This document shows, piece after piece, positions 43,011-46,329 of a DNA stretch of 64,000 bases (positions are counted from its first letter, which is position 1; each line of letters opens with the position of its first letter). Under the pieces are notes generated by a model. It was given only the letters and a program-made list of their open reading frames with translations. It was not told where the DNA came from and did no database searches. The DNA comes from Gimesia sp. (lineage in GTDB: Bacteria; Planctomycetota; Planctomycetia; Planctomycetales; Planctomycetaceae). Location of the stretch: assembly GCA_002706765.1 (NCBI GenBank), contig PAJV01000046.1:48358-112357 (forward strand), in the 5' to 3' direction. The translations under genes were made by a program, and so were the position numbers.

Positions 43011-43724
43011 TCAGCGCTCGTAATGTGTGGTATTGTGGTCCTGCCAGTCCGTGTCAATTTTCTGTACCTGAACGCCTTCTTTCGACGGACTAAATTGATA
43101 AATGCAATCAGCATAGCGTTCGAACATGCTGGAGTCGTGATGGCTGATCATGATAATCTGAAAGCCGAGCGCTTGCCCGGCTTCATGAATGATTTTCACG
43201 AGTCGAGGGACCAGATCGGGCCGCAACCAGCAATCCTGTTCATCCAGAACCAGGACGCGGCGGTGTTCTTTCTCATCGAGTGTCATCAGGGCAAACATCC
43301 GTAAGCCGACCGAAAGCACGTTGGCAACCGAACCTCCCTGCCCGCGCATGATGTCTTCTGTGTTTCCCTCACGTTCAATCTGGAATTCAACGCTGGCAGA
43401 ATTATGTTTCCACTCGGCATTGGCTATGAGTTTCAAGGGCTGCTCCAGAACCTCCTGCAGCGCAATCGTCAACTTTTCCTGTATCAGTTGCAGTTCCTGT
43501 TCAAACAACTGCCCACTGAGGGTTTCCAGAGCTTCGGTCACCTGTCCAGATATTGCGATATACTGTTCTGTTAACTGTATCTGTTCGGTCAGTGTGATTT
43601 TTTCTTTGATTTTCTGCTTCCGAACCGCCGACAGTTCCCAGCATTTACGCTGCAACGGGAGAGGCGATCGCAATTCTTCCGTAGCAAAATCCGGGTGATC
43701 AGAGGAAGGCGGTTTATTCATCAT
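43011..43724 (-). CDS. C-terminal half of a split Rad50/SbcC-like ATPase
   Basis: A 237-residue protein that resembles the C-terminal lobe of Rad50/SbcC. Residues 30-95 form an alpha-helical, coiled-coil-like arm. The ABC-signature region is GQGGSVANVLSVGLRMF (128-144), corresponding to LSGGE...SLALR of SbcC. The Walker B motif is VLVLDEQD (157-164), followed by a D-loop region (CWLRPDL). A histidine-loop motif follows (IIMISHHD, 190-197). No Walker A motif is present, so it cannot form a complete ATPase alone. The complementary half is encoded by the first gene of the operon (46329). It starts 29 bases after the coiled-coil gene. Its role is likely in DNA double-strand break or hairpin processing together with the metallophosphoesterase. 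Confidence 0.72.
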   Translation of the reverse strand: MMNKPPSSDHPDFATEELRSPLPLQRKCWELSAVRKQKIKEKITLTEQIQLTEQYIAISGQVTEALETLSGQLFEQELQLIQEKLTIALQEVLEQPLKLIANAEWKHNSASVEFQIEREGNTEDIMRGQGGSVANVLSVGLRMFALMTLDEKEHRRVLVLDEQDCWLRPDLVPRLVKIIHEAGQALGFQIIMISHHDSSMFERYADCIYQFSPSKEGVQVQKIDTDWQDHNTTHYER

Positions 43725-43753
43725 CTGTATTCTTAATCCACTGCTTTCAGAGT

Positions 43754-44059
43754 TCAGGTCGCGTCAGAAGCGTGATGTTCGGTTTCAATTTTCTGCAGTT
43801 CTGCTTCAATTTGAGTCAGACTCTGATGATATTCCGCACGTTTGCGTGAATTCTCGGCTTTCATCTGCTCCAGCTTTTCTTTTAATGCATCCAGCTCATC
43901 GGTGCCATATTCTTCCCGTGCCTGCTGTTTCAGTTCGTTCAGATTCTGTTCTGCATTGACCAGATCGCGTTCCGATTCAATCTTACGTTTATTCAGTTTC
44001 TGAAACTGTTCGGTTAACACCTCTATTTCGGGCACTGCTCCTGGTTGATCAGTCGTCAT
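43754..44059 (-). CDS. Small coiled-coil protein of the split-Rad50 operon
   Basis: A 101-residue, almost entirely helical, charged protein rich in Gln, Glu, Lys and Leu with heptad-like spacing (EVLTEQFQKLNKRKIESERD, ELDALKEKLEQMKAENSRK). It contains no catalytic motif. Its start ATG overlaps the end of the metallophosphoesterase gene by 11 bases, and GAGG lies nine bases before it, so translation is probably coupled. It could supply part of the returning coiled-coil arm missing from the C-terminal ATPase half, or link the complex parts. This is inference; the protein is not one I recognise. Confidence 0.7.
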   Translation of the reverse strand: MTTDQPGAVPEIEVLTEQFQKLNKRKIESERDLVNAEQNLNELKQQAREEYGTDELDALKEKLEQMKAENSRKRAEYHQSLTQIEAELQKIETEHHASDAT

Positions 44060-44996
44060 GGTTCGAAACCTCATTTGCTAATTTTTGTACTTCATCCGCA
44101 ACCGCGGGCTGAAACTGCGTTAAATTTTTTTCCAGAAATAATTTCAGGCCGGCACCACTGTCTGTGCGACGTGTCTGTAATTCTGCCAGCCCTGAAATGA
44201 AAGCTGAAGGGAGCCCCTGCTCTGTATCATCCTGTACCTCAGCGTGAAAGATTTCGTCGAAGGGCTGATGGGGCACTTCGACCACGGATCGCTGCCAGCC
44301 TTCAGTCGTAACTTCCAGCTTCAGTACTGAAGGCACGTGAGCCCGAGAGGCATCGCTGCGAGAACGGCGGACTATGTTGCCGGGAGTCACCCAGGTGGTC
44401 TGTCCTTTTATGACATCTTCCAGCCTGCGATGGATATGACCGTTTATTACGTAGTCAACGCCTTCAATTTCATAGGGTTTAAAATGGCCCTGTTCCTCGT
44501 AGCCGGGAACGATCAGATCATGATGAGTCACCCAGATCACCAGTGGCGGGTCTTCTCCGGGAGCAATTTCAATCGCTCCAGGCAGCTTTCTTCCCCAGGA
44601 TGTCCCGCCAATCAAAACCGAACGCCCCTGCATTTTCCCCCGCCAGGGTGTTTCGGCTGAGAGTAAATGATACTTTCCTGCCTGAATGAGAATACTGAGA
44701 GTATCGTGTTCATTCAGTTGATTTTCCCGACAATCATGATTGCCGTATATCCCGTAAACCGGAGGCTCAAACAAGGAGAGCAACTGACATAACAGCCAGT
44801 TCTGATTATCCCGGGGAACATGGAACAGGTCCCCCAGCAGAACAGGCAACAGGTTTTGCTCGCGAGCAGTCTGCAGACACCAGCGTAATTTTTCCAGCAC
44901 GATTTGAGGATAGTCATCTTTGCGAAATCCAGGGACGCGGCCTTCTACATGTGGATCGCCGATCAACAACACGCCAGAGTATTCTTCATGTACCAT
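44049..44996 (-). CDS. Mre11/SbcD-like metallophosphoesterase
   Basis: A 315-residue calcineurin-like phosphoesterase with motifs in the order expected for Mre11/SbcD nucleases: GDPH (13-16), GDLF (55-58), GNHD (85-88), THHD (157-160) and GHIH (186-189). These coordinate two metal ions, usually manganese, for DNA cleavage. The protein is shorter than E. coli SbcD (about 400) and its C-terminal cap region is small. The ATG overlaps the stop of the Rad50-like N-half gene by 11 bases (ATGGTACATGA), and the next gene overlaps similarly, so the three are probably translated in coupling. Function in DNA-end processing is inferred from family and context. Confidence 0.85.
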   Translation of the reverse strand: MVHEEYSGVLLIGDPHVEGRVPGFRKDDYPQIVLEKLRWCLQTAREQNLLPVLLGDLFHVPRDNQNWLLCQLLSLFEPPVYGIYGNHDCRENQLNEHDTLSILIQAGKYHLLSAETPWRGKMQGRSVLIGGTSWGRKLPGAIEIAPGEDPPLVIWVTHHDLIVPGYEEQGHFKPYEIEGVDYVINGHIHRRLEDVIKGQTTWVTPGNIVRRSRSDASRAHVPSVLKLEVTTEGWQRSVVEVPHQPFDEIFHAEVQDDTEQGLPSAFISGLAELQTRRTDSGAGLKLFLEKNLTQFQPAVADEVQKLANEVSNHDD

Positions 44997-46329
44997 GTGA
45001 GTGCCCCTGTAACCCCGTTTCCGCAGTTCTGATAAACTGGTCGGGCTCTAATTCTGCACCGCAGGTCGGGCAACTGGGATTTTCCTCAACCCACTTCAAC
45101 AACTGAATGCGGACAGACTCGTATTCGGACTCGCATTTCGCATGAAGGGAACATTGTGCGTTGAATTGATCAGCAGCCTGCTCCCATTGCTGACAGAGTT
45201 GTTCCATTTTCTGCAGATCGATCAGTTCGGGCGGAGGCTGACAGGACTCCAGTACTCTTGATTCTTGCCTGTCGATACGAGTGCGTTCTTCAGACACCGC
45301 AAGTTTTTGAATCATTTTTTGTAGAGACTCTGTTTCTGCCAGATGCGGAGGTTCATTTAATTGTTTCAGACAATCCCCCGTCGCGGATGCAGATTTAGCG
45401 ACCTGTTCCAGACTGAGTATCTCTCGGATCATTTTTTCGAGTTGATCTGTCTCTTGCAGGGAAGGTGGAACCGTCAGGGTCTGAAGTGCCGAAATCTGCA
45501 ATTGCTTCACCCTGGTTTTATATTCAATTGCCACAAATCGCTGCGTCAGTACAGCGAGCGGTTGCTCATTTTCCTGCTGCAGCGATTCAGGCAATATATT
45601 TAATGTTGCTACCGTATCTGACAGCCGCGACACTCGCTGCTCTGCCTGTTGAAATTCCTGAATGAATGCTTCAAGATTTCGAATCTGCTGCTGTTCTTTC
45701 TGCAGAGATTCATAGCTTAGATTGAGCAATTCCAGCTTGTTTTCCAGGTCAGGGATGGGTTTCAGCAATTCGAGTGCGATTTCGGCCTGTTTTAATTCGT
45801 TCTGCTGTCGCTGATATTCCTGTTGTGCCGTTTTCACTTTGCTGCGATGCAGTTTCTGCATCTCGATCAGAACCGACGCGTCTGAGGAGGAAGCAAAGAA
45901 TCGTGCCGCGCGACTGCCGCGGTCCCCCAGCAGAAAGATGGGTGACTTCTGTTCGCCGAAATGAACATCGAATTCATCTGCGTCGCCCGCTTTGACTTTG
46001 GATAATTTCAATATTTCATGTAGCTGATCGGGGACGCTGTTCCGCAAGCGATGGAAATCCACTCCATCGATATTGTAACTGACCGTTTTCTTTTTACGTT
46101 TCCATTCAATCATGTGTCCGTCGTCTGTTTCGACGATGACGCGACACTCTTTTTCCCCATGCCTGACCATGAAATCGCCGGACGTATTGTCTGCCAGAAT
46201 CTGAAGCGCGGAGACAAAAGCAGACTTGCCGCAATTATTGGGTCCGGTCAGCACCGTCAAGCCGGGCGACAGATCAATCACGGTGTGTGAGTGGCTCATA
46301 AAATTATGTAATGTAATCCGTTTTAACAT
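44986..46329 (-). CDS. N-terminal half of a split Rad50/SbcC-like ATPase with terminal zinc hook
   Basis: A 447-residue protein that resembles the N-terminal lobe and outgoing arm of Rad50/SbcC. It begins MLKRITLHNFMSHSHTVIDL, the usual RecF/SbcC start, with Walker A GPNNCGKSA at 29-37 and a Q-loop-like FGEQKSPIFLLGD (124-136). Residues 160-415 are a long coiled-coil arm with four approximate 40-residue repeats. The zinc-hook motif SCPTCG (CxxC at 420-423) lies only 24 residues from the C-terminus. No signature or Walker B motif follows. In ordinary Rad50 the hook is central and the same chain returns to a second ATPase lobe; here that lobe is encoded separately at 43011-43724. The ORF continues upstream to 46539, but residue 1 is placed at ATG 46329, where the conserved N-terminus begins. 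Confidence 0.8.
   Translation of the reverse strand: MLKRITLHNFMSHSHTVIDLSPGLTVLTGPNNCGKSAFVSALQILADNTSGDFMVRHGEKECRVIVETDDGHMIEWKRKKKTVSYNIDGVDFHRLRNSVPDQLHEILKLSKVKAGDADEFDVHFGEQKSPIFLLGDRGSRAARFFASSSDASVLIEMQKLHRSKVKTAQQEYQRQQNELKQAEIALELLKPIPDLENKLELLNLSYESLQKEQQQIRNLEAFIQEFQQAEQRVSRLSDTVATLNILPESLQQENEQPLAVLTQRFVAIEYKTRVKQLQISALQTLTVPPSLQETDQLEKMIREILSLEQVAKSASATGDCLKQLNEPPHLAETESLQKMIQKLAVSEERTRIDRQESRVLESCQPPPELIDLQKMEQLCQQWEQAADQFNAQCSLHAKCESEYESVRIQLLKWVEENPSCPTCGAELEPDQFIRTAETGLQGHSHGT

Follow-up and report, generated by a model that had tools for sequence, protein, structure and literature searches.

ATPases of the SMC type, Rad50 included, are understood to be built from one chain that is folded back on itself at a hinge or hook. 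Fusion proteins of Mre11 and Rad50 have been described, the genes of the Mre11-Rad50 (MR) complex are rearranged in viruses and mobile elements (PMC3175470), and SbcCD has been termed practically universal in jumbo phages (PMC7824862). In the parts of these two papers considered here, the fusions represent the reverse rearrangement, with Mre11 joined to Rad50 and no split Rad50 among them (PMC3175470), and the splits concern subunits of DNA polymerase III and RNA polymerase, none of them SbcC (PMC7824862). We found no description of a split Rad50 or SbcC in the open-access papers searched, in agreement with an earlier reading of this DNA from its letters alone (the sequence-only reading), which knew of none. 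Here we describe a four-gene set of this kind in 64,000 nucleotides of DNA from the planctomycete Gimesia sp. (GenBank assembly GCA_002706765.1, contig PAJV01000046.1, positions 48,358 to 112,357 of the forward strand); this whole stretch is referred to as the window. We consider it roughly 80% probable that the set makes a complex of the Mre11-Rad50 type in which Rad50 comes in two obligate pieces.

All four genes lie on the minus strand of the window in the order N chain, nuclease, coil protein, C chain. Genes 1 and 2, and genes 2 and 3, overlap by 11 bases each, and genes 3 and 4 are separated by 29 bases. The gene positions, motifs and overlaps given in the sequence-only reading were all recovered when the window sequence was re-read.

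44986..46329, minus strand: gene 1, 447 amino acids (aa), read as the split-Rad50 N chain, with N-lobe, helical-repeat arm and C-terminal CxxC
44049..44996, minus strand: gene 2, 315 aa, Mre11/SbcD-like nuclease
43754..44059, minus strand: gene 3, 101-aa coiled-coil protein
43011..43724, minus strand: gene 4, 237 aa, read as the split-Rad50 C chain, a long helix followed by the C-lobe

The sequence-only reading had proposed that the split is of the Rad50 type, and this is upheld by the C chain, whose AlphaFold2 model (predicted local distance difference test score 82.8) consists of a long helix (aa 22-93) and then the C-lobe, with C-halves of Rad50 as best solved matches. Its motifs are GQGGSVANVLSVG, VLVLDE and ISHHD, located as follows; invariance refers to an alignment of 49 rows.

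43320..43343, minus strand: ABC signature GQGGSVAN, aa 128-135, with G128, G130, G131, S132, V133 and N135 invariant
43239..43256, minus strand: Walker B motif VLVLDE, aa 157-162, with D161 and E162 invariant
43134..43148, minus strand: H-loop ISHHD, aa 193-197, with H195 and H196 invariant

The core of the signature reads QGGS in the window, RGGG, FGGA or HGHG in the phage copies described below, and SGGE in E. coli SbcC. When the C-chain model was compared with the viral structure library BFVD, the top three matches were all stand-alone and 193-219 aa long, and two have phage names. Another BFVD match, Q0E500, is listed as a 153-aa ascovirus 'Rad50-like protein' and, judged from the listing entry alone, resembles a stand-alone C-lobe.

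Gene 1 has the other half of the head. It matches AAA_15 (1.6e-15), AAA_23 (1.5e-10) and also AAA_27 in Pfam, and in profile comparison with solved structures the Rad50 N-lobe comes first (1.3e-7) and SMC6 next (1.3e-6). By fold, the N-lobes of RecF and SMC outscore that of Rad50, and therefore the N-lobe by itself cannot single out Rad50. The hook region is related to Rad50 as well, matching the solved Rad50 hooks 6zff (1.5e-4, profile positions 372-431) and 1l8d (3.4e-4, profile positions 374-431). Invariance in the following lines refers to the 29 rows of an N-chain alignment (A10) made without two hookless chains (L101, L107), without chains cut by contig ends, and without L084, L089, L093, L095 and L122, whose Walker A lies outside the pattern used.

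46222..46245, minus strand: Walker A motif GPNNCGKS, aa 29-36, with G29, N31, N32, G34, K35 and S36 invariant
45940..45960, minus strand: FGEQKSP, presumably the Q-loop of the ABC-ATPase fold, with Q127 invariant
45763..45879, minus strand: neck helix of the N chain, aa 151-189, from AlphaFold2 secondary structure
45235..45591, minus strand: three arm repeats, aa 247-365, with spacings of 41, 39 and 39 residues, the first repeat degenerate; self-comparison peaks at lags 39 and 78
45061..45072, minus strand: zinc-hook motif CPTC, aa 420-423, 24 residues before the C-terminus, with C420 and C423 invariant
44989..45057, minus strand: tail beyond the hook, ending GHSHGT; 26 of 39 rows and 15 of 32 census hooks have HxH there

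Of the 34 N chains in our census, 32 (eight of them front-cut) have the hook among their final 60 residues, and the other two are hookless. These two (L101, L107) lack CxxC and have an alternative helical tail that is similar between them. In the bacterial chains (39 rows) the end comes 17-24 residues past CxxC.

Gene 2 matches Metallophos in Pfam (8.7e-9) and has the motifs GDPH, GD, GNHD, THHD and NGHIH; D14, H16, D56, N86, H158, H159, H187 and H189 do not vary across an alignment of 26 rows, made up of the window and 25 relatives. As a single sequence its best match among solved structures is Mre11 (0.0056), the sole type of relative below E 0.1. Its profile retrieves no solved structure at 0.01, TIGR00619, the curated model of SbcD, does not match it even with E values as high as 1, and in PHROG a generic metallo-phosphoesterase family outscores the SbcD-like family. 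The C-terminal part of the protein is conserved as well.

44064..44222, minus strand: conserved C-terminal region of gene 2, aa 259-311 (26 rows), candidate Rad50-binding helices

By analogy with canonical Mre11, we infer that this region could be the helix-loop-helix for the Rad50 neck. The motifs and matches of the separate genes together argue strongly for a split Rad50-Mre11 complex, and it is very probable that the proteins would assemble into one.

The set is not peculiar to the window. Gene 4 was found in 14 of 16 same-genus relatives, the two without it being genomes of 74-76% completeness, and all four genes, in the same order, were present in each of the 15 relatives examined, namely these 14 and G020 from another genus (gene 1 is cut by a contig end in one of the 15). 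The search for this gene order in planctomycete genomes suggested by the sequence-only reading thus recovered it in 15 of 15. A C-lobe profile identified 16 of 392 genomes of the phylum, which belong to five genera, four in the family of the window and one in another family. When species genomes were scanned with the C-lobe alignment, at least 44 loci were obtained, a lower bound as two peptide patterns were used. The record titles assign 29 to planctomycetes, eight to Desulfobacterales or Desulfobacteraceae, two to 'Proteobacteria' and one each to Poribacteria, Sumerlaeia, Spirochaetes, Nitrospira and 'bacterium'; since almost all come from metagenome assemblies, individual taxon labels may be wrong. 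At 34 of the 44, all four genes stand on one strand and follow one another as in the window; the other ten comprise six that are cut by contig ends and four with the C chain alone. No open reading frame (ORF) with both lobes was found at any of the 44 loci.

Phages carry the set as well. Bacillus phage vB_BboS-125 (NC_048735) encodes an N chain, a 78-aa coil protein, a C chain and a nuclease; the CPLC motif of the N chain begins 13 residues before the end of that chain, the annotation reads 'exonuclease' for the N chain and 'ATPase' for the C chain, and the nuclease is an Mre11-like ORF in an unannotated stretch (L029:11100-12218). With its C chain we found 27 loci in IMG/VR, vB_BboS-125 itself and many close relatives included, and all 27 are ordered N chain, coil, C chain, nuclease. 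Thirteen N chains of the vB_BboS-125 type end 5-16 residues past CxxC, and six of them have HxH in the tail as judged by eye. In Microcystis phage Mvi-JY20 the genes overlap and are arranged as in the bacteria (N chain, nuclease, coil, C chain), and all four parts are present in LR745208. A sliding-clamp-like ORF, as judged by eye, stands between the coil-protein and C-chain ORFs of the latter (L075:10076-11257). In Tunturiibacter phage Tunturi_5 the N chain, coil and nuclease genes are near each other and the C chain is 107 kb off, and in phage Magritte the N and C chains are far apart, with no nuclease or coiled-coil gene in the 25 kb examined. The small coil genes of the named phages were assigned by position and weak scores. 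The words SbcC and Rad50 do not occur in the main text of a paper on vB_BboS-125 (PMC6375668) or of one on Magritte (PMC11663251).

Between bacteria and phages, the N chains can be aligned across 438 columns, hook included (E 5e-33), and the C chains at E 5e-13. For gene 3 the link is weak (hhalign probability 52%, E 1.5e-4, 42 columns), and coiled coils are prone to chance alignment. Profiles built from the bacterial chains gave five phage N chains 53-106 bits and four phage C chains 23-61 bits (Tunturi_5 35). A viral scan with the bacterial C-lobe alignment returned 16 stretches, with no relative among them. All split chains are united in the C-lobe tree (98/90), with a long-branch warning. 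In the N-lobe tree of 37 rows they are not united, a single clade is not rejected (p-AU, from the approximately unbiased test, 0.37), and they are united (99/98) solely after post hoc removal of two long rows, the Microcystis phage and YhaN. Genes 1 and 4 have phrog_16465 ('exonuclease') and phrog_15167 ('ATPase') as best PHROG matches (1.4e-19 and 8.9e-8); these families are annotated as separate functions, with no link to a split Rad50 in the records examined.

A combination of an ABC ATPase and a nuclease could also be an anti-phage defence system, like other such pairs, and PADLOC models of defence ATPases do match the N chain, AriA being the best (3.8e-16). We nevertheless find this unlikely. 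The nuclease has no PADLOC match at E up to 1, and within the genus the set occupies a fixed chromosomal site, because its flanks are constant: it is flanked by a POT-type transporter gene at every one of the 14 same-genus loci and by a lactonase-type gene at 12 of them, the remaining two ending at contig edges (neither gene was seen at the six loci of other genera). The set is also under strong constraint, with a ratio of nonsynonymous to synonymous substitution rates (dN/dS) of 0.05-0.14 in the nine gene pairs, out of 12, for which dS was computable (the window against three relatives). Finally, the Tunturi_5 copy lies near genes of the UvsX, RuvC and SSB types, which fits recombination. A role like that of SbcCD, in opening and trimming DNA ends, is our prediction, and we hold it to be somewhat better than an even bet; it is the likeliest role because of the ABC head, the intact metal-binding residues of the nuclease and the strong constraint.

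The sequence-only reading had the coil protein completing the return arm, so that it would run along the arm of the N chain and a canonical antiparallel coiled coil would be made of three pieces. In favor of this, gene 3 is a coiled-coil gene encoded between the halves, and it is present in all 34 loci that have N and C chains together. The lengths speak against it. Past aa 245 the N-chain arm is made of 39-residue units starting PPxLxD, and lags of 39 and 78 are the top two self-similarity peaks in nine selected bacterial N chains; such paired peaks are absent from the seven canonical SbcC arms tested. Among 24 loci, to which 39 rows were collapsed, the distance from Walker A to the hook takes values of 311, ~351, 391, 430, 469, 507 and 628 residues, and the arm-length period is 39.5 (R 0.96), a value reached by none of 5000 random sets. 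Gene 3, by comparison, stays at 90-113 aa, and its length does not follow that of the arm (Spearman -0.03, 39 rows), although a returning helix paired along the arm would need to change length in step with it. Its alignment (30 rows) has no internal indels and a conserved YGTD turn mid-sequence, from which the protein is probably a helical hairpin of fixed length. Gene 3 as the full return arm was accordingly rejected for want of length matching; with an arm of 311-630 residues, a partner of about 100 aa and a hook at the chain end, we regard that arrangement as improbable. What stands of the Rad50-like interpretation in the sequence-only reading is the split Rad50/Mre11 set, by sequence and by fold, and what falls is the coil protein as return arm.

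In the split Rad50-Mre11 complex that we favor, the arm beyond the neck is instead quite likely self-contained and built from repeats, as its length varies in 39-residue steps while that of gene 3 is fixed. The AlphaFold2 model of the N chain (predicted template modelling score 0.32) is too low in confidence to define the shape of the arm. Repeats are found in three of five phage types, with periods of 38 (Tunturi_5), 44 (LR745208) and 47 residues (vB_BboS-125 type); lag 47 is top in nine of nine vB_BboS-125-type chains tested, with a rival lag within 0.2 in two, and the Microcystis phage and Magritte chains have no arm repeats.

A further possibility is that the two halves are not partners, gene 4 being one half of a regulatory ATPase of the ABC type and gene 1 forming its own homodimer. 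Neither half passes a curated Rad50 model, and the C-lobe may sit at a separate locus; in one genome with a C chain alone (G430), no N chain, nuclease or coil gene was found in the rest of the genome. Set against this, each chain is without the motifs that the other carries, the nuclease profile finds the identical 16 of 392 genomes as the C-lobe profile, and phages retain both halves. Furthermore, in three of the four genomes with a stand-alone C chain the other three genes of the set occur on a separate contig (in one of these genomes a contig end truncates the coil gene), with the proviso that these genomes are metagenome-assembled and that contig membership depends on binning. The two halves thus tend to be kept together even where their genes are unlinked, and we see very little room for the view that they act apart. 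In three Pirellulaceae-labelled metagenome-assembled genomes (L113, L115, L117), a gene that is accD-like by its sequence is found immediately downstream of the stand-alone C-chain gene.

A sequencing error of the frameshift type, which the sequence-only reading had named as a way to refute its view, an assembly artefact and a programmed frameshift joining the halves have nothing but the adjacency of the genes in their favor and can be dismissed, since the arrangement recurs in 15 of 15 relatives and in many species, whole genes intervene between the halves, and the C-lobe is unlinked from, yet retained with, its partner in three genomes.

We suggest that the split Rad50-Mre11 complex would work as follows. 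The N and C chains would fold together as one ABC head. The C-chain helix (aa 22-93) has the length needed for pairing with the first helix of the N chain (aa 151-189), and together they would form the neck as in canonical Rad50. Two heads would close on ATP, with each site made of the Walker A and Q-loop of one N chain and the signature of the C chain in the other head. A dimer of the nuclease would dock on the necks by its C-terminal helices and trim or nick DNA ends and hairpins, probably gated by ATP. Past the neck, the arm may be a rod formed by the N chain only, of 39-residue helical units, with the hook at its tip. Gene 3, because of its fixed length and YGTD turn, would most simply brace the neck or elbow. 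As a conjecture, the rest of the zinc site could come from the HxH tail of the same chain, in which case the tip would not be a dimerisation hook.

A chain that ends at the hook, with the other half made separately, raises the question of what the returning helix is for, and it provides a natural system of two pieces that would allow the head, the length of the arm and the tip each to be varied on its own. We tentatively go one step further, in a reading that we think has perhaps one chance in three or slightly better: the set could be a lineage of Mre11-Rad50 of its own, spread over several bacterial phyla and diverse phages, with an obligately tripartite Rad50 (N chain, C chain and hairpin protein), a modular arm whose equal units are gained or lost singly while the partners stay unchanged, and a zinc tip that is maybe completed in cis by the HxH tail and does not necessarily serve for dimerisation. 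Each of arm length, tip and head would then be free to evolve separately, in contrast to the SMC-type proteins known to us. Annotation misses the set, as its parts bear generic names, and the phage copies ('exonuclease', 'ATPase', 'hypothetical protein') suggest that the same machine belongs to phage recombination gene sets.

The set would also explain how lineages without a recognisable SbcCD may have an MR complex. The sequence-only reading had asked whether the genome has an intact sbcCD pair, and neither SbcC nor SbcD scores over the curated cut-offs in the host genome; these cut-offs are strict, being passed in one (SbcC) and eight (SbcD) of 14 control genomes, so that the test is weak for SbcC. 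The best TIGR00619 score there is 20.8 bits, for a protein other than gene 2, against a cut-off of 77.65. In the phylum, SbcD is over the cut-off in 44 of 392 genomes and the split set is present in 16, with an overlap of 0 where 1.8 are expected; at P 0.14, mutual exclusion of the two is not significant. One split-set genome (G008) has a sub-threshold SbcD-type match of 59 bits.

A search for P-loop proteins in the own genome gave 31 matches, ten of them with loci, of which seven were examined. One (L004) is gene 1, and none of the six other look-alikes examined is a second split Rad50. Judging by eye, we take L062 to be an SMC protein, L063 to be YhaN-like beside a likely metallophosphoesterase, L066 to be Wadjet-like, L065 to be a P-loop protein with CPLC, and L003 and L005 to be AAA ATPases beside HNH-like genes. 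The ORF at 2436-4859 of L065 (G000:C23:9000-19000) is 807 aa long in translation, has its CPLC at aa 324 and may encode another small Rad50-like ATPase. Pairs of AAA ATPase and HNH-like genes at L064 (G000:C7:37000-52000) and the Wadjet-like cluster at L066 (G000:C59) are likely defence genes. A match in G037 (3.3e-4, 449-aa ORF) was dropped and taken as an unrelated ATPase.

Compared with Rad50/SbcC and Mre11/SbcD, the set shares the ABC head of N- and C-lobe, the CxxC hook and an adjacent nuclease with the same metal-binding motifs, and Rad50 is also the best solved match for the C chain and, by sequence, for the N chain. A Rad50-related N-lobe, a Rad50-fold C-lobe and a hook related in sequence to Rad50 were thus all found. 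It differs from canonical MR in having two Rad50 chains, a hook at the chain end instead of mid-chain with a returning helix, an arm of 39-residue tandem units, GQGGS in place of SGGE, and an extra protein of ~100 aa. None of the four proteins passes an NCBIfam cut-off, the best score with a Rad50 model being 32 bits against a cut-off of 1000, and genes 3 and 4 stay below every curated cut-off in Pfam. Bacterial-chain profiles gave no positive score to E. coli SbcC and six planctomycete SbcC proteins, and 2-7 bits to T4 gp46; the negative whole-chain scores of canonical SbcC come partly from coiled-coil bias correction, which overstates the distance. (The canonical controls were 12 SbcD loci, in six of which SbcC was identified by pattern.) In conclusion, the set would work like Mre11-Rad50 and yet is not a member of Rad50/SbcC as defined, because it lacks the single chain, the central hook and SGGE and stays below the curated cut-offs. 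Its nearest structural counterpart in one respect is the Rad50cd crystal construct (1f2t, 1f2u), a Pyrococcus furiosus protein reported to be active, whose N and C lobes are likewise two polypeptides that form one head; that split was made in the laboratory and is without long arm or hook, whereas in the window set the split is natural.

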